64,000 bases of DNA from Rhodobacter aestuarii (lineage in GTDB: Bacteria > Pseudomonadota > Alphaproteobacteria > Rhodobacterales > Rhodobacteraceae): positions 248,001 through 312,000 of the forward strand of contig NZ_FTOG01000002.1 of the NCBI RefSeq assembly GCF_900156655.1, in the 5' to 3' direction. The translations under genes and the position numbers were made by a program. Shown one piece after another: positions 1 through 25,660 of the stretch (position 1 is the stretch's first letter; each line of letters starts with the position of its first letter). The notes below the pieces were generated by a model, which was not told the origin of the DNA, ran no database searches, and was given only the letters and a program-made list of their open reading frames with translations.

Positions 1-100
1 CAGAGACGCCCGCGATATAGGATTCGCGCGCCGCCAAGATCGCCGCCGTGTAGCCGGTCGCCACATCGCGCTTTTCCAATTTGCGTTTGAAAGGCCACAT
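1..100 (-). CDS. Phage portal protein, N-terminal fragment (cut by window edge)
   Basis: Only the first 33 codons are inside the window. They begin Met-Trp-Pro-Phe-Lys-Arg-Lys, followed by a charged stretch and the motif GYTAAILAARESYIAG. This N-terminus is familiar from HK97-type portal proteins, which form the dodecameric DNA entry ring of the capsid. The ATG (98-100) lies one base after the stop codon of the prohead protease gene (102-104), so the two genes are tightly coupled. The position next to protease, capsid and terminase genes supports the call. The rest of the gene lies to the left of the window. Confidence 0.72.
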   Translation of the reverse strand, partial: MWPFKRKLEKRDVATGYTAAILAARESYIAGVS

Positions 101-101
101 G

Positions 102-659
102 TCAGAGCCTCCACCGATTGAGGGGGTTCACCGCGCCCCGGTAGGGCTGCCGATCTTGATGGGTTTCCCATGCCCGCGCCTCGATCTGCGCAGAGGGATA
201 GGCCGGGACCGTGACCGCAGAGACTTCAAACAGCGCCGCTTGTGTCACCGTGCGCACCAGATCAGCGCCGCGCCGTTCCACCTTGTCGCCGCCGCTCGGC
301 ACCCGGAAGCCGGGGGAAAGCCCCCGGATCAGCCCAGCGCGATGGGCGGCAAGGAAGTCCTTCGCCCAGGTGGTCGAGGCGTCAACCGTCGCTTCGATCT
401 CTACGGCAAGGTCAGTGCTGCGAAGCCGCAGCGTGCCCGCCGCCGTGCTGGCAAGAGGCTTGGTGTAATCGTGCTGGGCAAGCAGGTGGATTTCCTCGCC
501 CGCTTCGATGCGTCCCCGGAAGGCGTGAGGGGCGAAGACCTCGCGCCGCCCCGGTGCCAGTTCGGTTTCGGCTTGATAGGGGAACCGCGCCGAAAGGTGA
601 GTTGCCCCACCTTCCGCCCGAATTTCCAGCGTCCCGAGATTTCCGCCCCAGAGCATCAC
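102..659 (-). CDS. HK97-family prohead protease
   Basis: A 185-residue protein (or 184 from the ATG at 656). It has the layout of the U35 prohead serine proteases, which cleave the scaffold or delta domain of the capsid protein during head maturation. The candidate catalytic His is at residue 63 in AQHDYTKPLAS and the candidate catalytic Ser at residue 115 in GLSPGF; both motifs are characteristic of the family. The start GTG (657-659) overlaps the capsid stop codon, giving GTGA, so translation is probably coupled. The gene lies between capsid and portal, in the reverse of the usual portal-protease-capsid order. Confidence 0.88.
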   Translation of the reverse strand: MMLWGGNLGTLEIRAEGGATHLSARFPYQAETELAPGRREVFAPHAFRGRIEAGEEIHLLAQHDYTKPLASTAAGTLRLRSTDLAVEIEATVDASTTWAKDFLAAHRAGLIRGLSPGFRVPSGGDKVERRGADLVRTVTQAALFEVSAVTVPAYPSAQIEARAWETHQDRQPYRGAVNPLNRWRL

Positions 660-1918
660 GCCACCTGCACGCCGGTCAGGAGTTCGAGTTGCGCACCGCG
701 CGCGACGGTCGTGTCAACCGTGGTCAGCGCGGTCAGGCGCAGGCCACCCGAGGCCGCATCGCTGAACGGATCGCGGATCAGGTCCACCGCGCCCCACATG
801 CCCACGAATACCGGGGCAACACCGCCCGCCGAGGTGGTCAGAAGCGAAGTGCAGGCCAAGGGGTCGCCGGTCGGAGCCGCCAGCGCGGTCGAAGACATGG
901 CAATGCCGCCCATCTTTTCCGCCATGCGGTCAAACTCGAATTTCGGCGCAGAGGTCGCGGTCAATTGGTCTTCCATGAAGTCCCAGACCTCGGGCCGGAT
1001 CAGCGCGCGCACATCGGCGGGGGTCGAGGCGGCATTGCGCGCCATGAAGCGCACCACGGCGCTGCGATAGGTCGCCCAAGACGCCGCAGCATCAACCGCG
1101 GTCGAGGTGATGCCATAGGTCGCCGCCCCGGTGATCACGCCCAGCGGTTGCCCATCCGCGCCGGTGCCGAGGAAGATCGCGCGATCAAGTTCCGCGCCCA
1201 TCGCCCCGTTCATGTCGCGCCGGATCGCCGCTTCCAGAGCCTCGCCCGATTGCAAGAGCGCCTTGCGGGTGACCCGCATTTGAACGCCCATCGTCTGATT
1301 GGGGGCTAGCGCTTTGTCGATGGTGCCGTAGGCGGTCGGGTCGGGAATGTTGCCAGTTTCGCCGTTCGCCCAGCCCGCCGTGACGGCAGAGGTCGAAACC
1401 GGCCATTCGACAGCACCGGAACCGATAGCGATCATCTGGGCACCCATGCGCGCGGCCACGCTCGCCGGGAAAAGCCGGTCGATGATCGGGCGCGTTTGCA
1501 TCGGGTCGGGCGTGCCGGTCGAGACGGTTTCACCGGCCCGCGCTTCGAGCGCCAAGAGCGGCACGGGAATGCCGCGATAACCGCCCGCGTTGCGCAGCTC
1601 GGCCACGACTTCGGCGGTTTTCCCTTCAAGCGCGCGGCCTTCATTCAAGGCCCCGATCACTTGGCGCATTTGAAAGCCCGCGATCAGGTCGGACCATTCG
1701 CGGCCCGCGCGGGTTTCCAGATCGGCCCCGGCCTCGCGGCGCTCGGTATCCTCGGCAATGAGGCTGGCACGCAAGCGGGTTTCGTTGGTGCGATATTCCG
1801 CATCGAGGCTTTCCATCGAGCGGGTTTCGTCTTCGGTCGGGGTCGCCTTGCCGACAAGGCCCGCAAGGGCTTGGCGGATCTCGGATTGCCGACGCTGAAT
1901 TTTCACGCTTTCAAGCAT
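656..1918 (-). CDS. Major capsid protein, HK97 fold
   Basis: A 420-residue protein from the ATG at 1916-1918. This start is preferred over the longer open frame to 2236 because it has an AAGGAAA Shine-Dalgarno and makes an 8-bp overlap with the HNH gene; the longer N-terminus is only the HNH gene read in another frame. Residues 1 to about 90 are charged and helical (the delta or scaffold domain expected to be removed by the protease). The remainder has the usual HK97 capsid features, including an arginine-rich N-arm region, GATYG- and AAPTGDPLA-like segments and a C-terminal RGAQLELLTGV segment. It forms the capsid shell. Confidence 0.88.
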   Translation of the reverse strand: MLESVKIQRRQSEIRQALAGLVGKATPTEDETRSMESLDAEYRTNETRLRASLIAEDTERREAGADLETRAGREWSDLIAGFQMRQVIGALNEGRALEGKTAEVVAELRNAGGYRGIPVPLLALEARAGETVSTGTPDPMQTRPIIDRLFPASVAARMGAQMIAIGSGAVEWPVSTSAVTAGWANGETGNIPDPTAYGTIDKALAPNQTMGVQMRVTRKALLQSGEALEAAIRRDMNGAMGAELDRAIFLGTGADGQPLGVITGAATYGITSTAVDAAASWATYRSAVVRFMARNAASTPADVRALIRPEVWDFMEDQLTATSAPKFEFDRMAEKMGGIAMSSTALAAPTGDPLACTSLLTTSAGGVAPVFVGMWGAVDLIRDPFSDAASGGLRLTALTTVDTTVARGAQLELLTGVQVA

Positions 1919-2261
1919 GGTCGTTTCCTTCACTGAGGGGGAGGGTTTCCGCTGCCAGATCGGCAACGGCAGTCGCCCAAGCCTTGCGCTCGGGGGATTT
2001 CTCTTTGTGCCCGCATTCGATGCGGGTTTTGCGAGTGTGGCAGCGCGGGCAGAGCGCTTGCAGGTTGCGCGGATCAAAGGCCAGATCAGGCCGCAGCCGA
2101 ACCGGCTGGATATGGTCCACCTCAAGGCGGCGTCGTTCACCGCAGCACCGGCACGCCCAGCCGTCACGCTCAAGGATTTGGTGCCGCAGCACTTGCCAGC
2201 GGCGGGTTGAGGTGACGCGCTTCGAGTGCCGCGCATATTCCTTGCGCTTGCTCATAGCCAT
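1911..2261 (-). CDS. HNH endonuclease
   Basis: A 116-residue protein with a complete HNH fold. CRCC lies at residues 37-40, the LEVDHIQPV core (Asp49-His50) follows, then NLQALCPRCHTRKT with Cys71, Cys74 and His75. The paired Cys residues bind a structural zinc. HNH proteins beside terminase genes assist genome packaging in HK97-type phages and in related satellites. The start overlaps the end of the terminase gene, and its stop overlaps the capsid start (ATG at 1918), so it sits in a translationally coupled head-packaging operon. ATG codons at 2261 and 2255 are both possible starts. Confidence 0.9.
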   Translation of the reverse strand: MAMSKRKEYARHSKRVTSTRRWQVLRHQILERDGWACRCCGERRRLEVDHIQPVRLRPDLAFDPRNLQALCPRCHTRKTRIECGHKEKSPERKAWATAVADLAAETLPLSEGNDHA

Positions 2262-3904
2262 GCCACCCTTGGCTTGCGCTCGGGTGTGGCCTTCATGCGC
2301 GCGCCCTGCGCCACGGCCAGCACCGATGCCGCCGCCGCGTCGATCCGGCCAAGGCTTCGGGCCTTCGCCAGCTTGTGGTTGCCTGCCGGATCAACCAGCG
2401 TGATTGCATCCGAAAAGGCGCTGCGCAGAAGCATGGAGGGGGCAACAAAGATTTCGCCGTCAAACAGCGCGCGCCGGAATCGCTCAATGTCTTCGGAGCC
2501 GTCTTTCCACCCGAAGCCGCGCCAGATGAACGGCACCCGCGACAGGCCCGCCGCGTTCATCGCCTCAACAAATTCGGCATTGCGGAAACGGTCGCCACAG
2601 ATGCAGGCCGGTTGCACCCCATCGAGGCGGCGCACCACTTCGGCCAGCCATGCGCCGGGGGGAACCGTCGCCTCGCCCAGAACCGTCAACTCGCCCCGGT
2701 CAAACATCTGCGAATAGCGCTCGCCCACGCCGTCAGCCGCGCCCCTATCGGCAAGGCTGGGGGTGCTGGGGAAGGTGCCCACGGCCTCAAGACGCCCCGT
2801 CTCGGGCCAGTAGAACGCCGCAGCCGACATGCTGCGAGAGCCGCCCAGATCAACGCCCAGCACGCAAGGCCCCGCCCGCTCGGGCAGTTCATCGGGCGAG
2901 ACTTCCGCCGACAGCCATTCGTCAACCGTCACCAAAACAGACCGGCTTTCGCTCGAAACCCGTTCGTTTCGGTTCAGGTTGCGGAAGCTGGACAGCGCCG
3001 AACCGCCCCGCGCAATCGCGCGCCGCGCCTGTGCCACAAGCCAATCGGGCGTTGAGCCGATGCCCTCGGTCGCGCCGGGGTTGGCTTCGAGCAGGCTTTC
3101 CAGATCATCGGCAGGCAAGCCAAAGGCGGGCCGGTGTTCCTGCACATAGGTGCCGGGGGGCGGATCATCGAGCCACCGGGAAAAGGCGTTGGTATCGTCG
3201 GGCGCAGAGGTCGAGATGATCAGCGCGCGGCCATCACGTTTGCCAAGGCCCGACAGGATCGCGTTTTCCAGTGTCTCGCCCTTGGCCGGTTCCCATGCCG
3301 CCCGTTCATCGAGAACCGCCAGCGTCGGAGCGCCGCCCAAGATCGACTTGCCATCGGCAGCAATGACGCGGGCCAGCCCGCCGCCGTTGCCCTCAAACTC
3401 AACTTCCAGCTTTGAGCCGCGCCGGATCGTGAAAAGCGCTTGATCCTCTTCGGGCAAGCCTTCGATGTAGCCGACAAGGAAGTTGAACGCGGTCTTGGCT
3501 TGGTCCCGGTTGCGGGCCGCAAAGAGGATTTCGCGCTTGGGCTGGGGCTTCGCATCGAGCGCGCCCACCAGCTCGGCCAGCGACAGGCCAGCGCTCAACG
3601 CGGTTTTGGCATTGCCGCGACCGATCGACAAAAGGCCCACCATGACGCCATCGGCCAGCGCACCGCGCACGAACCGCTTTTGAAACCCGGCCAGCTTGAG
3701 CGGCTTTCCCGCCGTGCGGCCCTCGGGGATGCGCAGTTGTGCAAGGAAGGCAAGCGCCCGGTTCGCCCGATTTTTCCCCCGGATTTTTTTCAGGAGAGAG
3801 AATTGTAAACTCAGACCGCCGGTCCCGGCCTCGGCAGAAACCGGGGCATTGGGACCATTCTTGCGCGGTCGCCCCCTCGGGCGCTTGGTCGCGGCCTCGG
3901 TCAT
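2252..3904 (-). CDS. Phage terminase large subunit
   Basis: A 550-residue packaging motor. The Walker A-like motif is SIGRGNAKT (about residues 93-101), a typical terminase variant. The Walker B motif is LAVLDE (Asp199, Glu200), with a possible coupling motif STSAPDD near 231. The C-terminal nuclease domain starts at VLGVDLGGSRS with the metal-binding Asp352. The N-terminus has an AT-hook-like basic patch (KRPRGRPRK). The ATG overlaps the stop of the connector gene as ATGA, and the end overlaps the HNH start. No small terminase subunit was recognised nearby; it may be an unrecognised short gene or missing. Confidence 0.92.
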   Translation of the reverse strand: MTEAATKRPRGRPRKNGPNAPVSAEAGTGGLSLQFSLLKKIRGKNRANRALAFLAQLRIPEGRTAGKPLKLAGFQKRFVRGALADGVMVGLLSIGRGNAKTALSAGLSLAELVGALDAKPQPKREILFAARNRDQAKTAFNFLVGYIEGLPEEDQALFTIRRGSKLEVEFEGNGGGLARVIAADGKSILGGAPTLAVLDERAAWEPAKGETLENAILSGLGKRDGRALIISTSAPDDTNAFSRWLDDPPPGTYVQEHRPAFGLPADDLESLLEANPGATEGIGSTPDWLVAQARRAIARGGSALSSFRNLNRNERVSSESRSVLVTVDEWLSAEVSPDELPERAGPCVLGVDLGGSRSMSAAAFYWPETGRLEAVGTFPSTPSLADRGAADGVGERYSQMFDRGELTVLGEATVPPGAWLAEVVRRLDGVQPACICGDRFRNAEFVEAMNAAGLSRVPFIWRGFGWKDGSEDIERFRRALFDGEIFVAPSMLLRSAFSDAITLVDPAGNHKLAKARSLGRIDAAAASVLAVAQGARMKATPERKPRVAWL

Positions 3905-4212
3905 TCCGGCACCTCGCCCAGCGAAACACCGCGATAGCGCGCGCAGATGCGAGACGCGGCCAGCGACAGCCCAAGCGGCCTATCCCGCTCGGTCGCCCCG
4001 CCCCGGTTGTCGTAAAGCATCGAGCATTGGTCATAGATCGCGAAGGCCAGATCATCGGGCAGCGCGCCATCCTCGGGCGCGGTGTAGTTGGCAGCGGCCA
4101 GCACATCGCCCTGAGCGGCTTCGAGCATCTGCATCAACGCTGCGTCTTCGTCGTCGCCATCCACACGGGCAACAAGTTTGGCTTGGGAAAGCTGAATGCT
4201 TGCGAGGGTCAT
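3901..4212 (-). CDS. Head-tail connector (gp6-like) protein
   Basis: A 103-residue protein starting MTLASIQLSQAK. It resembles the gp6-like head-tail connector family: short, helical, with the pattern of an acidic N-terminal helix, an ALPDDLAFAIYDQCSMLYD helix and a C-terminal RICARYRGVS helix. The start at 4210-4212 has an AAGGA Shine-Dalgarno. The longer frame to 4476 is rejected because its extra N-terminus is only the translated 11-bp repeat array. The protein would form the ring below the portal that closes the head. Its gene overlaps the terminase start, so it is the first gene of the head operon seen here. Confidence 0.68.
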   Translation of the reverse strand: MTLASIQLSQAKLVARVDGDDEDAALMQMLEAAQGDVLAAANYTAPEDGALPDDLAFAIYDQCSMLYDNRGGATERDRPLGLSLAASRICARYRGVSLGEVPE

Positions 4213-4233
4213 TGGTGGGTGTCCTTCAAGGCG

Positions 4234-4282
4234 TTGGGGCGCGCCCCAAGGGCGCCCCAAAAGCCCCTTACGTAGTAAGGGG
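4234..4282. promoter_or_regulatory. Palindrome and inverted repeat upstream of the head operon
   Basis: A perfect 16-bp palindrome (TTGGGGCGCGCCCCAA, 4234-4249) is followed by a perfect 8-bp inverted repeat with a 3-nt loop (CCCCTTAC at 4264-4271, GTAAGGGG at 4275-4282). They lie between the repeat array and the connector gene, so they could be an operator, a replication element or a hairpin in the leader. No long T-run follows on either strand, which makes a simple terminator less likely. Confidence 0.45.
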
Positions 4283-4294
4283 GAGAGAGGGGGA

Positions 4295-4393
4295 GGGGAG
4301 ATGAAGGGGAGATGAAGCAGGATTGAAAGGGAGATGAAGGGGAGATGAAGCAGCCCAAAACCGGAGATGAAGGGGAGATGAAGGGGAGATGAA
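4295..4393. repeat. Nine-unit 11-bp tandem array (GGGGAGATGAA) with a 33-bp super-period
   Basis: Nine 11-bp units run without a gap through 99 bp. Units 1, 2, 4, 5, 7, 8 and 9 match GGGGAGATGAA with at most two changes. Units 3 (4317-4327) and 6 (4350-4360) are divergent but keep register and share the first four bases GCAG, so the pattern also repeats every 33 bp. An 11-bp unit is close to one helical turn, so a protein could bind all units on one face of the DNA. The array lies just after the RepA-like gene, where a replication origin (iterons) or a head-operon control region would be expected. Confidence 0.9.
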
Positions 4394-4399
4394 GGCCGC

Positions 4400-5674
4400 T
4401 CATTTCGCCACCTCAACGAGTTTGGTGGTCGGCTTGGACGGCGAACCGCCCGCCTCAATGGCGATCTTTCCGGCATTCAAGAGGCTATCCATCGCCCTCT
4501 TGAAGCCGTCCTTCGTCACCCCCTCATTGTCTTGGTGCGAGGCGAATTGAGACGGCGCATAGGACGGCCCGCTGTTGCTGTTCACCTTCCGGCCTTGCTC
4601 GGTGAACATGCGCAACAGCTTCATGAACACCCGTTCCGCCTTAGACGCCTTCGCCATGCGGTCGAGGCCGGTTTCGCTCGGATCGGCCACGAAAACACCG
4701 TCGAGCCACGTCACCGCGATTTCGGCCCCGCTGCGCCCGTAGTTCAGCTTCTTGTTGCTCAGAATGCGGGCGTCTTCGTCGGCTTCCTCGCCGTTTACCA
4801 TGACGCGCTGGAAATAGAGCCGCGAACGGGCGCTTCCGTTCCAAGCAGTGTTGCCCGAGGTGCCAGAACCGCTCGCCATGCCCGAAAGCGACGGGTGCGC
4901 AAGCATGACAACTGCGCAGTCATGTTGTAGGGCAAGCTTCTTGAGCATCCCCACAAATTGCCGCACTTGCGCCTTGTCGTTCTCGTTGCCGGGGAACAGA
5001 TCGGCCAGCGTGTCGAGCACCAGAAGCGCGGGGTTGAGGTCGGTCAGGATCGCCCGAATCTCATCATACAGGCCCGAGGGGATAAGCGGCTTTCCTGCCC
5101 CATCCGCGCGCGCCAGAAGCGCATCCTCGCCCGCAAGGCTGGCATATGTCAGGCGTTGGAGGTCGGCCAGCGTAGCGCCCTCGCTGCGCACAATGTCAGC
5201 GAAGCGGCGGTGCAGCTCGTCTTGCTCGTCTTCTGCCGACAGGAACACCGCGCGGCCCTCGGTCACACCGCGCCCGATCCATTGACGCCCGAGGGCGACG
5301 GCGCAGGCCAGTTGCGCAGAGAGCAGAGATTTGCCGGTGCCGCCGTCGCCATAAAGCAGGGTGACTTCGCGGCCCGGAATGAAGTCGCGCACCAGCCATT
5401 TGCGTTCCGGCACCTCAAGCCCTTCGAGGTCAGCGGCACATTTGAACCGGCTTCCCTTGGCCTCACCCCGCGCCGGTTCGCCCATGTCGCCGTAAGCGTC
5501 CAGCGGGGTCAGAGGAACATCGTCGCAGCCTGCCGGGGTGCTATCCGGTGGGGGGTGGACTTGGCGCAGCGGCGCGCGGGTCGAGGTCACACCCTCGCGG
5601 CGGTCGCGCTCATTGCGCCAGTCTTCGAGCGCCTGCCGTGCCTCGGGCGTGTTGAAGATGCCGTCTTCCATCAC
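4400..5674 (-). CDS. RepA-like AAA ATPase (AAA_25; helicase/primase-associated replication protein)
   Basis: A 424-residue protein. The RecA-type ATPase core has Walker A GDGGTGKS (residues 109-116), FLSAEDE near 144-150 and Walker B LLVLD (217-221), then VMLAHPSLSG, which fits the sensor region of RepA (RSF1010)/KaiC-like ATPases. These act as hexameric replicative helicases or helicase loaders in plasmids, phages and islands. The C-terminal about 90 residues may be a winged-helix DNA-binding part. The start ATG overlaps the preceding small gene as ATGA. It is the only replication protein visible in the element. Confidence 0.78.
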   Translation of the reverse strand: MMEDGIFNTPEARQALEDWRNERDRREGVTSTRAPLRQVHPPPDSTPAGCDDVPLTPLDAYGDMGEPARGEAKGSRFKCAADLEGLEVPERKWLVRDFIPGREVTLLYGDGGTGKSLLSAQLACAVALGRQWIGRGVTEGRAVFLSAEDEQDELHRRFADIVRSEGATLADLQRLTYASLAGEDALLARADGAGKPLIPSGLYDEIRAILTDLNPALLVLDTLADLFPGNENDKAQVRQFVGMLKKLALQHDCAVVMLAHPSLSGMASGSGTSGNTAWNGSARSRLYFQRVMVNGEEADEDARILSNKKLNYGRSGAEIAVTWLDGVFVADPSETGLDRMAKASKAERVFMKLLRMFTEQGRKVNSNSGPSYAPSQFASHQDNEGVTKDGFKRAMDSLLNAGKIAIEAGGSPSKPTTKLVEVAK

Positions 5675-5859
5675 GCGGCCCCCCGCTTGGCGAAGGGCAG
5701 CACCTTGGCGGAATGAAGCAGATAGGGAACGCCTGCGGTCGAGGCACGGGCGTATTCAATCGCCTCGCGACGGGTCGCAAACTCGCGCAGGAAGTCGCCG
5801 CAGAATGTCACCCAAAAGACGCGCACCCCGTGGGCTTCGAGTTCCTCGATAGCAATCAC
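5671..5859 (-). CDS. Small hypothetical protein of the phage-like element
   Basis: A 62-residue acidic-to-neutral protein with no family I recognise. It begins with GTG (5857-5859), which overlaps the stop of the upstream gene as GTGA, and its own stop overlaps the ATPase start. These tight overlaps on both sides are the main evidence that it is translated. The sequence has a short beta-rich start (VRVFWVTFCGDF) and a helical segment (REAIEYARA), which would suit a small regulatory or accessory replication protein. Confidence 0.6.
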   Translation of the reverse strand: MIAIEELEAHGVRVFWVTFCGDFLREFATRREAIEYARASTAGVPYLLHSAKVLPFAKRGAA

Positions 5860-6128
5860 GAAAGCACCCCCGCAAAAGCGTGGTCGATGATCGCCGCAGC
5901 TTGATCAGGCTTGAGAGAGTGCAGCGCGGCCATGAGAATTGCCGCCCGCTCGCCCGTGGTCAGCCGCACCGCCCAGACGCTTGCCACCGCCTGCCACGCC
6001 TCGGGCGTGTCGAGGATCAGGCCATAGCCGAGAAGCTTCGAGGCGCTCTTGTGCGCGGGCTTGGCAAAGGCAGAGATTGCGTTGCGGGACGGGCTGCGGT
6101 ATCTTTTGCCAGTGGTTTCTTGACCCAA
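5856..6128 (-). CDS. Hypothetical protein at the element boundary (start uncertain)
   Basis: The conserved-looking part is the last 60 or so residues (LLGYGLILDTPEAWQAVASV to AAIIDHAFAGVLS), which read as a compact helical protein. The frame stays open to an ATG at 6333-6335, but that start lies in host DNA beyond the attachment site and would translate the antisense of the tRNA-Cys fragment, so I reject it. TTG at 6126-6128 is the first alternative start inside the element, and it has only a weak ribosome binding site. The function is unknown. It is the first gene of the left-reading operon and overlaps the next gene. Confidence 0.45.
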   Translation of the reverse strand: MGQETTGKRYRSPSRNAISAFAKPAHKSASKLLGYGLILDTPEAWQAVASVWAVRLTTGERAAILMAALHSLKPDQAAAIIDHAFAGVLS

Positions 6129-6197
6129 GCTTTTGGCCCCGGTTGCGCCTGCACGCGCACCGGGGTTTTCATTTGCGCCGGTCAGATGGGCACTTGA

Positions 6198-6272
6198 AAC
6201 TTTCTCCGAAAGTTCACGCTTTGTCTGGGCCTGTTTTGAAACAGTTCCCCTTTGATTTTCTTGCGAAACAGG
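6198..6272. repeat. Cluster of short inverted repeats beside the attachment site
   Basis: AACTTTC (6198-6204) pairs with GAAAGTT (6208-6214) across a 3-nt loop. CTGTTT (6231-6236) pairs with AAACAG (6239-6244), and a third copy GAAACAGG stands at 6265-6272. The stretch is more A+T-rich than its surroundings. It ends exactly where similarity to tRNA-Cys begins. This is what integrase arm and core binding sites commonly look like, but the hairpins could also be a terminator. Confidence 0.4.
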
Positions 6273-6274
6273 CT

Positions 6275-6321
6275 GGATTGCAAATCCGTGAAGACCGGTT
6301 CGATTCCGGTACCCGCCTCCA
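6275..6321 (+). other. Attachment site: 3' fragment of a tRNA-Cys gene (attR-like)
   Basis: The last 47 bases of a tRNA-Cys are present. They include the anticodon loop TTGCAAA (anticodon GCA), a complete T arm (ACCGG TTCGATT CCGGT), the 3' acceptor strand ACCCGCC, a discriminator T and CCA. The 5' half, which should start GGCGGGT about 75 bases upstream, is absent. A lone tRNA 3' end is the usual footprint of site-specific integration. It predicts that the rebuilt full tRNA-Cys, and probably the integrase, lie left of the window, with 1-6274 being element DNA. Confidence 0.85.
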
Positions 6322-6603
6322 AATCTCCCAAGCATTTCTCGGACACGGCAAAAATCGGTTCACGCGCTGAATTGCGCGTTCCCGTTCCGTTGGCCTTTTG
6401 CCCGCGTCGGCTTCTGTGATGACTTAGCGCGATTCGTAGCGCGCGTGCGGCTCTTGCCAGCCGATCCCCAGACCTCCCGAATTTACGCTCAAGGCTCTGA
6501 ATTAAAGACCTATTCTTTCGTGACCAAAGCTCCGAACGGTGCGTTTGCAGAGCATCAATCTGGCTCTGTCAGCTTTCCTTCCCAACGACCCAAGGAGTTG
6601 ATG

Positions 6604-6744
6604 ATGAGCAACCGCTTTCAGAGCACTCTGTGCACCAGCGCAGGACCGGCAGAACAGGTGGGGCCTACTTGCCGCAATCGGCAGCGCTGCCCCCTAATCC
6701 CCGCCCCCGGCCAGCAGATCAGGGGGCAAGGATGCAACGCATGA
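6604..6744 (+). CDS. Very small hypothetical ORF upstream of the spike gene
   Basis: A 46-residue frame starting MSNRFQSTLC, with AAGGAG at a good distance from the ATG at 6604; another ATG at 6601 is too close to it. It ends in a TGA that overlaps the next small frame. The composition is Arg-, Gln- and Cys-rich and matches no family I know. It is reported because of the good ribosome binding site and the chained overlaps into the spike gene. It could be a short leader rather than a stable protein. Confidence 0.4.
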   Translation: MSNRFQSTLCTSAGPAEQVGPTCRNRQRCPLIPAPGQQIRGQGCNA

Positions 6745-6890
6745 TCGGGCTGGGCGGCCTTGGGCTGGGCGGCCTCGCAACCCGCCCAAATAGCACCGGC
6801 ACACCGACGGGATTCCTCCGTGTCCTGACCGTTAACGGCGCCATCGTCGTGAACGCCGCGGGTGCGGCATATGTTTTGGAGGCGCAGTGA
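6732..6890 (+). CDS. Small glycine-rich protein preceding the spike gene
   Basis: A 52-residue protein with a Gly/Leu-rich start (MIGLGGLGLGGLATRP) and a beta-type tail (FLRVLTVNGAIVVNAAGAAYV). The ATG at 6732 follows AGGGGGCAAGG. An alternative ATG at 6741 overlaps the previous stop. The stop TGA is followed one base later by the spike ATG. The tail resembles short phage fibre or adaptor proteins in style. With the spike it may form a two-part head or tail spike, where the small part is the anchor. That role is inference. Confidence 0.5.
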   Translation: MQRMIGLGGLGLGGLATRPNSTGTPTGFLRVLTVNGAIVVNAAGAAYVLEAQ

Positions 6891-6891
6891 T

Positions 6892-8832
6892 ATGGCGATC
6901 ACCTCATTTCCGATTGAAACCATCTCTGGCGACGGGCTGATCGCGCAGATCACGGCGGCGCGTGACCTGGCGCTGGCTGGCTCGCCGTATCGGCTCGCAA
7001 GCTTTGCCGAACTGGCGACACGGCTTGTGTATTCCGGGGCAACGGCTGGCCAAATCACCGTGACGGCGGGCGATGTGATCGACGTGATCGGCTGCGGAGC
7101 TTACACCGTCGCGGCATCTGGCGCGACCGACGCCGACCTGTCTTACGCCGTCAAGCTTTATGCTTTGCCTGACAAGGGCACCTTGAGCATAGAGCAATTT
7201 GGCGGCGGGACCGCCGTGGCCGACAACTCGCCTCCTGCCAATTTGGCGATGGCGGCGATTGAGCGCGTCGGTGGTGCGGCGCTGGTGTTCTCGGCGCCGG
7301 GCACTTACGATTTTGGCGTGAGCAAAAACAACCCCTATGGCGCGGGCAAATGTTGCGTCGACATGACCTCCGACAAAACAACCGTGATCGTTGGCCCCGG
7401 CGCCACGCTCAAACTTTCTGATGGTGCGCAGACCGACGCGACGGGCCCAGTTTATCTGTTTGCAGGTGATGTCGCGCGCTCTGGCATCCGGTTTGAGGTG
7501 GATGGGACCATCTCGAATAACAAAAACGGCCAGCCCGGTTGGACGGGGGGCTATTCCCAAGCGGGTGCGGGGGGATGCTGCGTGCTGTTCAAGGGCAGCA
7601 CGCCCGGTGGCCGCTATGAATTTGTGGGCACCGGCACGATTGGCGATTGTTTTTCAAACCCCATCGACATTAGCGCCGCAATAGCGCGCGGCGGGAGCGT
7701 TCATTTCGGCCAGATCACCTATACCAACTGCGGTGAGGGGCCGGAGATCGCAGGTTTTGATCAGGTGACGGGAACACCCTGCTACGTCCTCGACGAAGAT
7801 TTCCAGATGGCCGGTGACGGGATTGAGATCGCCCGTTGCGGCGATGTGGTGCTGGAGAACATACGCGTCGAATGTCGCCAAGGCAGCCCGAAAGGGTCGG
7901 CGCTAGAATTCTATGGCTGTGAAACCGTCACCGTACAGGGATACACCGTATTAAACTGGTGGGATTTGATCGGCCTCGGGGCACCGTCTGGGGGGATGAA
8001 TGCTTTCGTCTTCCCGAAGCCCGTGTTGATGAATGGCCGCGTGATTGGGCTGCAATCCTCAACCGGGATCGTAGATGGCTATCAAGGGCTTACAAACCCT
8101 AACCGGATTGTCTTTGATGGGCTGCATATGTCGGACAGCCCGAACACGATCCCACTTTACGTCACGGGTGACAGCACGGCCGAACCGATCGAGTTCTACA
8201 ACGTCAAATTTGACAACTGCAAAAAGGTGATCGTTCTTTCCGATCGTCACCACATCTGGCACGGCGGCGGAAACGCCAACAGCTCTGACGTTGCCTTTGA
8301 GTTCCAAGCACAGAAAGATGATGACGCGCGCAGTATTGATTGGCGCAATCTTGATTTTACGGGCTCGGTATCCGGGGCCCGGATCAACTCGCTCACCCGG
8401 ACGGGGTTCAAGATCAAAGGCGTGATCACGAATTGCCACATGGATACGCTGGCCCAATGGCCGAATGGCGACAGCGATGTGGACTATTCTGAGCTTATTT
8501 CGGACGGCAACAAACCAGATGTCTATGTGGGTACGTCTACGGATATCGGGGCGTTCATGCGCTGCCAGATTCGCAGCGCGCCGGGGGGCTTTGTCAACGA
8601 AGTGCGCAACCCGAGCGCGGGGATGGTGTTGCAGATCATGAACCAAAGCGGCAGCGCCATGACGCTCGCGCATGATAACAGCTCTGTCGCAGATGCCCCG
8701 CTTCGCTATGCGCCGCTGTTCAATCTTAGCGGCGTGAATGATGTGCTCGCGACCGGACACTCGCGTTCTTACCGTTTCTTGAACGCAAGCGAGGCACCGG
8801 ACGGCGCTGCGGGTATGTATGAGATCGGCTGA
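6892..8832 (+). CDS. Right-handed beta-helix spike protein (phage/GTA-like tail or head spike)
   Basis: A 646-residue protein from the ATG at 6892, with GGAGG ten bases upstream. It has no signal peptide. The N-terminal about 110 residues form a separate domain (MAITSFPIETISGDGLIAQI), which fits a particle-binding head. Residues from about 110 onward show the short beta-strand rhythm and the Gly, Asn and Asp turns of pectate-lyase-like spikes (LSIEQFGGG, GDGIEIARCGDVVLENI, YTVLNW). The end is a small beta domain. The gene is outside the tRNA-bounded element and points the other way, so it is probably a host locus such as a gene transfer agent spike, or a remnant. No catalytic residues can be assigned. 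Confidence 0.65.
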   Translation: MAITSFPIETISGDGLIAQITAARDLALAGSPYRLASFAELATRLVYSGATAGQITVTAGDVIDVIGCGAYTVAASGATDADLSYAVKLYALPDKGTLSIEQFGGGTAVADNSPPANLAMAAIERVGGAALVFSAPGTYDFGVSKNNPYGAGKCCVDMTSDKTTVIVGPGATLKLSDGAQTDATGPVYLFAGDVARSGIRFEVDGTISNNKNGQPGWTGGYSQAGAGGCCVLFKGSTPGGRYEFVGTGTIGDCFSNPIDISAAIARGGSVHFGQITYTNCGEGPEIAGFDQVTGTPCYVLDEDFQMAGDGIEIARCGDVVLENIRVECRQGSPKGSALEFYGCETVTVQGYTVLNWWDLIGLGAPSGGMNAFVFPKPVLMNGRVIGLQSSTGIVDGYQGLTNPNRIVFDGLHMSDSPNTIPLYVTGDSTAEPIEFYNVKFDNCKKVIVLSDRHHIWHGGGNANSSDVAFEFQAQKDDDARSIDWRNLDFTGSVSGARINSLTRTGFKIKGVITNCHMDTLAQWPNGDSDVDYSELISDGNKPDVYVGTSTDIGAFMRCQIRSAPGGFVNEVRNPSAGMVLQIMNQSGSAMTLAHDNSSVADAPLRYAPLFNLSGVNDVLATGHSRSYRFLNASEAPDGAAGMYEIG

Positions 8833-12979: not shown

Positions 12980-13675
12980 ATGGCTAGAATCGTGATTCTC
13001 ACCGGAGCGGGGATTTCAGCAGAAAGCGGGATTCGCACCTTCCGCGCCAGCGATGGGCTTTGGGAAGAGCATCGAATCGAAGAGGTCGCCACGCCAGAGG
13101 GCTTCGCGCGCGACCCGGTTTTGGTGCAGCGATTCTATAATGCCCGCCGAGCGGCGGCCGCAGCGGCGCAACCCAATGCCGCGCATCTGGCTTTGGCCGA
13201 GTTGGAGGCTGATGGGCGGCATCAGGTTTTGGTGGTGACGCAGAACGTCGATGACCTGCATGAACGGGCGGGCACGCAAAACCTGATCCATATGCACGGC
13301 ACGTTGACCGGGGCGCTTTGCGCGGCTTGCGGCCATCGCTGGCCCGCGCCCCAAGAAATGAGCGCCAAAGACCCCTGCCCTGCTTGCAGCAAACCCGCAA
13401 CGCGGCCCGATATCGTTTGGTTTGGCGAAATGCCTTATAGAATGGAGGAAATCTGGCCTGCGCTGCGCCGAGCGGACTTGTTTGTCTCGATTGGCACCTC
13501 CGGCAATGTCTATCCGGCGGCGGGCTTTGTGGCTGATGCAATGCATGCGGGCGTGCCGACGCTGGAATTGAACCTTGAGCCCTCGACCGGGACGCGTATG
13601 TTTGACGAGGCCCGTCACGGCCCCGCCACGCAGGTGGTTCCGGCTTGGGTGCGCGAGATGCTGGCGCAGGGGTAG
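12980..13675 (+). CDS. cobB: NAD-dependent protein deacylase, sirtuin
   Basis: A 231-residue class III sirtuin. The NAD-binding motif [14 protein letters not shown] is at residues 9-22. [12 protein letters not shown] and the catalytic HMHG (His) follow. A zinc ribbon is complete with CAACGHRW and [20 protein letters not shown] completes the Rossmann fold. It removes acyl groups from lysines using NAD. The presence of Tyr and Arg pocket residues (typical of desuccinylases) was not checked by alignment. The start ATG is at 12980, 28 bp from the divergent phosphatase gene. Confidence 0.94.
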
Positions 13676-22051: not shown

Positions 22052-24013
22052 ATGATCGTCGAAACCGGGCACTTTGCCCTGATCCTCGCGCTGTTTGTGG
22101 CGCTGGTGCAAACCACCGTGCCCTTAATTGGCGCGCAAAAGGGCTGGAGTGGCTGGATGGCGGTCGCCGCGCCCGCGGCGCTTGCGCAGTTTTTGCTGAT
22201 TGCCACGGCCTTCGCAGCGCTGACCTATGCCTTTGTGACCTCGGATTTCTCGCTGCAATTGGTTTATGCCAATTCGCATACCGATAAGCCGATGCTTTAC
22301 AAAGTCTCGGGCGTTTGGGGCAACCACGAAGGCTCGATGCTTTTGTGGGTGATGATCTTGGCGATCTTTGGCGCGGCGGCGGCGGCTTTTGGCGGGGCTT
22401 TGCCCGAACGGCTGCGCGCGCGTGTGCTGTCTGTCCAAGGCTCGATCGGGCTCGCCTTTTTGGCCTTTATCATCTTCACCTCAAACCCGTTCACCCGGAT
22501 CATTGATGTGCCCTTTAACGGGCGCGACATGAACCCGCTGCTGCAAGACCCCGGCCTCGCCTTCCATCCGCCGTTCCTTTACCTCGGCTATGTGGGGCTC
22601 AGCATGGCGTTTTCCTTCGCTGTGGCCGCGCTGATTGAGGGGCGGGTGGATGCCGCTTGGGCGCGCTGGGTGCGGCCATGGACGCTGGCGGCGTGGATTT
22701 TCCTGACCATCGGCATCGCGCTTGGCTCTTGGTGGGCCTATTACGAGCTTGGCTGGGGCGGGTTTTGGTTTTGGGACCCGGTCGAGAACGCGTCCTTCAT
22801 GCCGTGGCTTTTGGCGGCAGCGCTGCTCCATTCCGCCATTGTCGTTGAAAAGCGCGAGGCGCTCAAAAGCTGGACCGTTCTGCTTGCCATCATGGCCTTT
22901 GGCTTCAGCTTGATTGGCACCTTTCTGGTGCGCTCGGGCGTCATTTCCTCGGTGCATAGCTTCGCCAATGACCCGGAGCGGGGGGTGTTCATTCTCTTCA
23001 TCCTCGCGTTCTTCACCGGCGGCGCGCTGACGCTTTATGCCGCCCGCGCGGGCGAGATGCAGGCCAAGGGCATCTTTTCGATGGTCAGCCGCGAATCTGC
23101 GCTGGTGATGAACAACATCCTGCTCGCCGTTTCGGCGCTGGTTGTGTTCACTGGCACCGTTTGGCCGCTGGTGGCGGAACTGTTCTGGGACCGCAAGCTC
23201 TCGGTCGGGGCGCCGTTCTTTGAAAAGGCCTTCACCCCCTTCATGGTCGCCTTGGCGCTGCTTTTGCCGATTGGCGCGATGATGCCGTGGAAAAGGGCGA
23301 ACCTTTCTAAGCTCATCCGCCCGCTGCTGCCTGCCGCGATCTTGTCGCTTGCGGTAATGGCACTGGTTTGGACGATGGCAACGGGCCGCCCGGTGCTGGC
23401 GCTCGCCTCGGCGGGTTTGGGATCGTGGCTTGTGTTTGGTGCGCTGGCCGAGATTTGGCAGCGCGCGGGCCGCACGCCCGCCCGTATCGCGCGCCTGCCG
23501 CGCGCCGATTGGGGCAAGGCGCTCGCACACGGCGGTTTGGGCATTGTGATCGCCGGGATCGGGCTTTTGATGGCCGGTCAGGTTGAAGATATTCGCGTCG
23601 CGAAAGCGGGCGATCATTTCACCGTTGCAGGCTATGAAATCACCCTTGTCGGCGTCGAAACCGTGCCGGGGCCGAACTTCAGCGCGCAACGCGCAACGAT
23701 GGAAGTGCGGGTCGGCGATAAGCTTGTCACCACGCTGCACCCGGAAAAACGCATCTACCCCGTGCAAGCCATGCCCACGACCGAGGCCGATATCGACAAT
23801 GGCTTCTGGCGTGATGTTTATCTGGTGATTGGCGATCCGCAAGACGGCGGTGGCTGGGCGGTGCGCACCTATATCAAGCCCTTCGCAAACTGGATTTGGG
23901 CGGGCTGTCTGATCATGTCCTTCGGTGGGCTGCTTAGCCTCACCGATCGGCGCTATCGTGTGGCGGCGGGGGCGCGTAAAACAGCCCCTATCAACGCTGT
24001 TCCTGCGGAGTAA
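22052..24013 (+). CDS. ccmF: Cytochrome c heme lyase subunit CcmF
   Basis: A 653-residue polytopic inner-membrane protein with about 14 hydrophobic segments. The periplasmic tryptophan-rich WWD signature appears as WWAYYELGWGGFWFWDPVE near residues 230-248. VWGNHEGSMLLWV in the N-terminal part is also characteristic. With CcmH it ligates heme to the CXXCH motif of apocytochromes c in System I maturation. The ATG at 22052 follows AGGAGG. The ORF could extend to 21335, but those residues are not CcmF-like. It ends 3 bp before ccmH, so they form an operon. Confidence 0.96.
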   Translation: MIVETGHFALILALFVALVQTTVPLIGAQKGWSGWMAVAAPAALAQFLLIATAFAALTYAFVTSDFSLQLVYANSHTDKPMLYKVSGVWGNHEGSMLLWVMILAIFGAAAAAFGGALPERLRARVLSVQGSIGLAFLAFIIFTSNPFTRIIDVPFNGRDMNPLLQDPGLAFHPPFLYLGYVGLSMAFSFAVAALIEGRVDAAWARWVRPWTLAAWIFLTIGIALGSWWAYYELGWGGFWFWDPVENASFMPWLLAAALLHSAIVVEKREALKSWTVLLAIMAFGFSLIGTFLVRSGVISSVHSFANDPERGVFILFILAFFTGGALTLYAARAGEMQAKGIFSMVSRESALVMNNILLAVSALVVFTGTVWPLVAELFWDRKLSVGAPFFEKAFTPFMVALALLLPIGAMMPWKRANLSKLIRPLLPAAILSLAVMALVWTMATGRPVLALASAGLGSWLVFGALAEIWQRAGRTPARIARLPRADWGKALAHGGLGIVIAGIGLLMAGQVEDIRVAKAGDHFTVAGYEITLVGVETVPGPNFSAQRATMEVRVGDKLVTTLHPEKRIYPVQAMPTTEADIDNGFWRDVYLVIGDPQDGGGWAVRTYIKPFANWIWAGCLIMSFGGLLSLTDRRYRVAAGARKTAPINAVPAE

Positions 24014-25574: not shown

Positions 25575-25660
25575 GCGGGCGTGGCGGAATGGTAGACGCA
25601 TGGGACTTAAACTCCCTGGGAGGTAACTCCATGCCGGTTCGAGTCCGGCCGCCCGCACCA
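25575..25660 (+). tRNA. tRNA-Leu (UAA)
   Basis: The 86-nt sequence folds as a class II tRNA. The acceptor stem is GCGGGCG with CGCCCGC, discriminator A and encoded CCA (25658-25660). The D arm is TGGCGGAATGGTAGACGCA, the anticodon loop holds TAA, and a long variable arm (TGGGAGGTAACTCCA) and the T loop TTCGAGT follow. It reads UUA and UUG codons. A GC-rich hairpin (around 25543-25575) stands just upstream and may help terminate the preceding gene. Confidence 0.97.

Follow-up and report, generated by a model that had tools for sequence, protein, structure and literature searches.

The window, a stretch of 64,000 nucleotides of Rhodobacter aestuarii (C15:248001-312000; the host genome comprises 3.84 Mb in 31 contigs), opens with about 6.3 kb of phage-like head and replication genes next to a fragment of a tRNA gene. 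The question raised by this locus was whether these genes were a piece of a prophage or part of a capsid-forming satellite, as had been proposed in an earlier note made from the letters of the window. Based on the analyses described here, it was concluded with a probability of about 0.8 that the element is a complete integrated satellite of 10.7 kb, which would make and fill its own heads, borrow the tails of siphophages and in this way depend on a helper.

The contig extends to the left of the window, so that the left part of the element could be read in the segment L003 (C15:235001-255000), in which position 13001 is window position 1. The leftward extension recommended in the earlier note yielded an intact tRNA-Cys (GCA), located by ARAGORN at C15:243586-243659 (L003 8586-8659), an adjoining integrase gene and several small genes, and the left end of the element was found to be complete. 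The tRNA-Cys fragment at the right end proved to be identical over 48 bp to the 3′ part of this intact gene. The two copies of the attachment (att) repeat were placed at L003 8613-8660 and L003 19275-19322 (window 6275-6322) and were separated by 10,662 bp. Chance does not account for an exact 48-bp repeat of a tRNA that has an integrase next to one of its copies, and the element is real, complete and mobile.

The gene content reported earlier was recovered in full: a RepA-like ATPase, a connector, the terminase large subunit (TerL), an HNH endonuclease, a capsid protein, a protease and a portal were all encoded on the minus strand in right-to-left order, with the genes overlapping or abutting. 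Searches with TerL returned at least 77 genome loci and at least 80 viral contigs, the resulting 157 relatives being a lower bound. The record names of the genome relatives were all alphaproteobacterial and included Paracoccus denitrificans DSM 413 (L067) and Rhodobacter capsulatus DSM 1710 (L006). In a quick TerL tree (n = 72), 57 sequences belonged to Rhodobacterales, 7 to Hyphomicrobiales and 6 to Sphingomonadales, and two, one of them the window's own, had no order. TerL, HNH, capsid, protease and portal were present together in 142 of the 157 relatives and stood in this order in 141, the exception being a circularly permuted contig; an integrase lay within 9.5 kb of TerL in 111 of the 157.

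A bounded set of 43 elements (the window's and 42 relatives) was defined by a direct repeat of at least 15 bp overlapping a tRNA found by ARAGORN; the set excludes loci that lack a repeat and those with a repeat but no tRNA (e.g. L008, L031, L042, L052, L143, L150). The bounded elements occupied 13 tRNA isotypes in three orders, and 42 of them measured 9,647-11,251 bp (median 10,446, standard deviation 408), when the deleted L051 (6.6 kb) was excluded. TerL and capsid were encoded by all 43, and HNH, protease and portal by 42. Further, the capsid was matched at E ≤ 1e-60 in 30 of the 295 genomes sampled from the host's family (its own included, nearly all one per genus) and TerL in 3 of 18 genomes of the host's genus. 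A sample of the phylum gave matches at E ≤ 1e-10 in 11 of 398 genomes, five of them above E 1e-200; the weaker ones were probably other phages. The element thus belongs to a common and apparently undescribed alphaproteobacterial family: no description of such elements in alphaproteobacteria was found in the open-access literature, subscription papers and bioRxiv being outside this scope. In L006/L092 and L150, a single head block was flanked by a pair of integrase genes or of nested att repeats, a pattern like that of tandem or composite integration.

The called proteins of the element were scanned singly against Pfam and PHROGs, and none of them matched a tail or lysis family. For the bounded relatives, the accessory proteins were divided into a set of 147 and a set of 37 (nine of the latter from the element) and scanned; no tail family appeared among the 25 most frequent PHROG families of each set (out of 88 and 43) or among 25 of the 28 Pfam families. 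The families listed concerned head closure, regulation (AlpA and Arc types), replication and partition. When 20 larger accessory proteins (nine from bounded elements) were scanned singly, mostly replication matches were obtained, together with one topoisomerase-type and one small-terminase match, and no tail match occurred in any bounded element. Additionally, three tail modules of the host supplied 42 query proteins, which were compared with every frame of at least 45 amino acids (aa) in the 43 elements. Three matches were recorded at E ≤ 1 (the best at 0.0036), two of them to head-closure-type proteins and one weak. The same queries recovered the tail modules of one another as well as the L134 tape measure, which was the sole match at E ≤ 1e-5 among the 157 relative loci with their flanks. 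The earlier note had expected a satellite to measure about 10-15 kb and to lack tail genes, and a complete temperate phage to reach 35-45 kb with tail and lysis modules. The distance between the att repeats fell within the former range, and no tail or lysis gene was recognised either in the singly scanned proteins or with the host tail queries.

Several observations weigh against this conclusion. No Hc1 head-closure protein, AlpA regulator or small terminase subunit was found among the called proteins of the element with Pfam and PHROGs, save one match of the HNH protein to a PHROG named terminase small subunit; a divergent small subunit could escape such a search. The earlier proposal of a capsid-forming satellite held as to size, integrase and the lack of recognised tail and lysis genes, while its AlpA-like gene was found in relatives only, an AlpA/HTH_17-type gene being present in 13 of the 43 bounded elements. 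An Hc1-like gene was detected in 18 of the 43 by two profiles, one of them checked against Pfam. A 239-aa frame beside the integrase had no family match in Pfam or PHROGs and no fold match in the PDB (none at E below 0.5), although its structural model was confident (predicted local distance difference test score, pLDDT, of 80); the frame may be considered a candidate master regulator. The lack of tail families in the PHROG scans of the relatives' accessory proteins holds for the 25 most frequent families, out of 88 in one set and 43 in the other. Five relatives (L007, L022, L041, L113 and L116) bore exact terminal repeats of 56-144 bases, which indicated circles of 9,970-10,340 bp, and gave no integrase match, so that integration is not universal in the family. 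Finally, L134, a viral contig of about 10 kb with a permuted gene order, carried a 569-aa tape-measure gene (L134:2846-4555, PHROG E 8.5e-38) adjoining the portal of the head block, and hence tail genes are not strictly absent from the family. In L134 this gene stood without any of the remaining tail genes that were looked for. The tape measure might determine how long a borrowed tail becomes; satellites of E. coli with tape-measure genes are mentioned in the accessible part of PMC10448857.

The circular relatives look like satellite plasmids. Their replication genes were of several unrelated types, and four of the circles shared a 122-aa gene that was found in no other locus of the set examined. 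The contig name of L041, from Gemmobacter serpentinus, states a coverage of 941, a figure for that contig alone. L109, like L134, had a permuted gene order, and neither had exact terminal repeats.

It was considered whether the element could be an ordinary member of the published capsid-forming phage-inducible chromosomal islands (cf-PICIs) that happens to sit in an alphaproteobacterium. Such a membership seems possible but rather doubtful. The functional set is the same, with integrase, replication gene, connector, TerL, HNH, capsid, protease and portal and no tail, and the AlpA-type regulators of the 13 relatives would fit it. However, neither AlpA nor the small terminase subunit was found among the element's proteins, no primase-type Pri-Rep was recognised, the RepA-like ATPase matching the helicase part of a primase/polymerase PHROG, its length is below the cf-PICI average of 14 kb, and the cf-PICI host groups in the accessible part of PMC10803314 include no alphaproteobacteria.

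The possible source of tails was examined in the host genome. A complete RcGTA-like cluster of a gene transfer agent (GTA) was located at C19, and siphophage-type tail regions were located at C12 (~36-52 kb) and C7 (~192-202 kb) (L220-L222); the two modules and the GTA are possible tail donors. The C12 prophage region itself contained GTA-like tail genes, with matches of the GTA gp12-gp15 type at E 1e-41 or better. The head of a GTA holds about 4 kb. It was asked whether the element rides the host GTA, its own larger heads taking GTA tails where the GTA head is too small, and this was judged unlikely. The GTA marker PF13547 was detected in 16 of 25 carriers tested, including 10 of 10 Rhodobacterales; the GTA has counterparts that were matched by the connector, portal and protease profiles of the element (E ≤ 1e-3) and by the tape measure of L134 (E 7e-19). 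This tape measure was nevertheless closer to that of a prophage (E 1e-30), and PF13547 was not found in 9 of the 25 carriers, among them all 6 Sphingomonadales tested. If the marker is reliable, the GTA is not the general helper; it was rejected as an obligate one and kept as a possibility in Rhodobacterales.

A degraded prophage, in which a full phage would have lost the genes for tail, lysis and control and have persisted through chance or domestication, is improbable. Prophage-like regions of 10-15 kb in Rhodobacteraceae are read in this way in the accessible part of PMC8224337, and both L207 from the same genus and L051 from elsewhere are truly decayed. Random loss would, however, not yield the same ends, genes and order and a length of 9.6-11.3 kb in 42 of 43 elements at 13 isotypes in three orders. 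The genes were also full length. The ratios of nonsynonymous to synonymous substitution (dN/dS) between the element and L082 were 0.08-0.34 for six head genes, the connector value resting on four changes, and those against L005 and L041 were 0.15-0.40; these values point to purifying selection on the head genes. No parent phage was found among 128 records matching TerL, all of which were under 60% identity, with HK022 ranked best at 29% over 87% of the length. The capsid gave 31 matches, likewise all under 60%, with 23-32% in the best-ranked rows. Decay as the principal explanation was rejected on the constant ends, order and size together with purifying selection.

The comparison with L082 also bears on how the parts of the element move. 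The block from connector to portal was 94.8% identical at the DNA level, whereas no alignment was obtained at the replication end or over most of the integrase end, so the head block moves as a unit. Within the genus, the tRNA-Cys site was unoccupied in the genomes G710 and G712, and the latter carried a family member at another site. In G709 the integrase and the small gene at this site were those of the family, but the head module beside them was of a different, ClpP-protease type (L210:6799-12000); this is perhaps another kind of head-carrying element, and it continues past the segment read. A decayed relative with integrase, regulator and portal occupied the site in G705.

The connectors offered a further indication of tails. 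The element of the window has a type-I connector before TerL; in another branch it is replaced by a type-II connector between protease and portal. Type I was present in 22 of the 43 bounded elements, type II in 20 and both in none; L062 had neither among its called genes, and a type-II frame was present in it in a separate frame count. The AlphaFold model of type II was confident (pLDDT 85). Its structure search gave a best E of 2e-6 in BFVD, with 19 entries below 1e-3 and several of them named head-tail connector or Gp6, and a best value of 9e-3 in the PDB, for the neck of an Agrobacterium phage. On this model, type II has the gp6 head-tail-connector fold, and the family therefore keeps a head-tail connector without a tail of its own. 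Such connectors make sense only with tails attached. When the connector protein was compared with phage records, two weak matches only were obtained. A small autonomous tailless virus, the heads of which alone would carry DNA across, is thus very improbable: it would agree with the lack of a tail gene and with the circles without integrase, but a gp6-type connector, useless without a neck or tail, was found in 42 or 43 of the 43 elements, and portal and connector are parts of tailed-phage heads.

We proposed that the satellite proceeds through the following steps. The integrase would recombine the element into the 3′ end of tRNA-Cys and leave the tRNA intact, as the observed att repeats and integrase suggest. 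A helper signal would lead to excision and to replication from the 11-bp repeats beside the RepA-like ATPase, an activity read from the observed anatomy. The capsid, protease and portal, the genes of which are present, would form a small HK97-type head, into which TerL with HNH would cut and package the DNA. The narrow family range of 9.6-11.3 kb suggests a head-size limit. The observed gp6-type connector would close the portal vertex and offer a dock for the tails of a siphophage in the same cell. The particle would then inject its DNA into a new cell and the element would integrate at tRNA-Cys, which is consistent with the patchy occupation of this site in the genus. More speculatively, the elements may form an alphaproteobacterial lineage of capsid-forming satellites apart from the published cf-PICIs, in which the head block would be a cassette swapped between integrated elements and integrase-free plasmids, and the heads would take any siphovirus-type tails, in Rhodobacterales possibly those of the GTA.

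The features of the element are listed in the table. The open frame of the 90-aa gene reaches position 6335 and thus crosses attR; relatives of this gene occupy the same place in other elements. The RepA-like ATPase also matched the helicase part of a primase/polymerase PHROG, and primase domains were present in some relatives only. The 11-bp repeats are likely iterons of a replication origin, judging from their position, and arrays of at least three copies were listed in 9 of the 43 bounded elements (no control set). In sequence comparisons with the PDB, 6z6d was the only relative of TerL, one clear relative (8gta, E 9e-9) was obtained with the capsid profile, and no convincing match with the portal profile. 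The Pfam score of the portal (E 2.4e-9, 37.3 bits) was slightly below the cut-off of 39.1. Between portal and integrase, small frames on both strands were present in addition to the 239-aa frame.

Table. Features of the integrated element, from the left att site to the right one (window coordinates unless C15 or L003 is given)
Feature	Position	Strand	Evidence or remark
attL	C15:243613-243660		within intact tRNA-Cys
Tyrosine integrase	L003 8728-9756	-	Phage_integrase E 1.8e-15; adjoins intact tRNA-Cys
Candidate regulator, 239-aa frame (221 aa from first ATG)	C15:244948-245667 = L003:9948-10667		adjoins integrase; relatives in 19 loci
Portal, first codons	1..100	-	whole gene 354 aa, C15:247036-248100
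S78 prohead protease, 185 aa	102..659	-	Pfam E 1e-25
HK97-type major capsid protein, 422 aa	656..1924	-	Pfam E 2.8e-15
HNH endonuclease, 116 aa	1911..2261	-	Pfam E 2e-11
Terminase large subunit TerL, 550 aa	2252..3904	-	PHROG 9 E 2.4e-56; Pfam TerL ATPase E 8.3e-9
gp6-type head-tail connector (Ad1), 103 aa from ATG	3901..4212	-	PHROG 40 E 9.5e-15; Pfam E 6.7e-6
11-bp repeat array, about nine copies	4294..4395	-	minus-strand unit CCTTCATCTCC; directly after replication gene
Replication ATPase, RepA-like, 424 aa	4400..5674	-	AAA_25 E 2.6e-40 (Pfam)
Small open reading frame, 62 aa	5671..5859	-	no family match below E 0.05
First operon gene, 90 aa from chosen ATG	5856..6128	-	no family match
attR	6275..6322	+	48-bp copy of tRNA-Cys 3′ part

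Immediately beyond attR, window 6732-8832 encodes a small frame rich in glycine and a beta-helix-like protein of 656 aa. A frame similar to the small one occurs at the tail end of the C7 prophage, and the pair is perhaps a remnant of another prophage. The beta-helix-like gene (6862-8832, with a weak Glyco_hydro_28 match) was considered as a tail fibre of the element and rejected because it lies beyond attR. Two tRNA-Leu genes, both with the anticodon TAA, were located farther into the window at 22088-22182 and 25575-25660, 3.4 kb apart, the first being 95 nt long.

If the satellite interpretation is true, about one in ten of the genera sampled in the host's family harbours a satellite that can assemble whole heads, with tails the only missing part. 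The open-access literature searched contained no report of satellites or of tail borrowing in these bacteria. A peak of prophage lengths at 10-15 kb in Rhodobacteraceae is read as decay in the accessible part of PMC8224337, where some short regions are GTAs; as a suggestion only, part of this peak may be the family described here. The members in two non-pathogenic laboratory species, P. denitrificans DSM 413 and R. capsulatus DSM 1710, lie beside a resident GTA, which makes satellite use of GTA tails directly testable.

Among known systems, the element was closest in gene set to the cf-PICIs. According to the accessible part of PMC10690885, these are defined by capsid, protease, portal, connectors, both terminase subunits and HNH, and alpA and Pri-Rep are added in that of PMC10448857. 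The element resembles them in att-site integration, the replication gene and an intact operon with a full head and packaging set, including the Ad1 connector, and no tail genes. It differs in that no AlpA, small terminase subunit, primase-type Pri-Rep or head-closure protein was recognised in it, in the family length of about 10.4 kb and in its alphaproteobacterial host. The element would work like a cf-PICI, to which it is likened by gene set and not by descent; it was not filed as one because AlpA and the small terminase subunit were looked for in vain. A 15-kb faecal phage record, MT835917, was rejected as a cf-PICI reference, its gene content being that of an ordinary siphophage fragment.

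The circular relatives resemble the episomal capsid-forming satellite plasmids of Vibrio (cf-PISP), as described in the accessible part of PMC13230959 (where 900 cf-PICI capsids are also mentioned), in lacking an integrase and keeping the head block, but the latter belong to another bacterial class, and the replication genes of the circular relatives are of several unrelated types. The phages of the HK97 group (HK022, HK97, HK106 and HK446) share with the element the similarity in TerL, an HK97-type capsid and an S78-type protease; they are, in contrast, autonomous tailed phages of 36-42 kb, and the gene order of the element is connector-TerL-HNH-capsid-protease-portal. The RcGTA-like GTA of the same genome also has HK97-type head genes, with a distantly related portal, protease and connector. 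It is a separate cluster with a full set of tail genes and has neither integrase nor att sites, whereas the element is mobile and would package itself. The arrangement proposed here is matched by MulchRoom and MiniFlayer, satellites of virulent actinobacteriophages of Streptomyces, which in the accessible part of PMC10690885 are stated to have no homology to other satellites. Set against the element by description only, they likewise carry their own capsid and packaging genes and use the tails of a helper.

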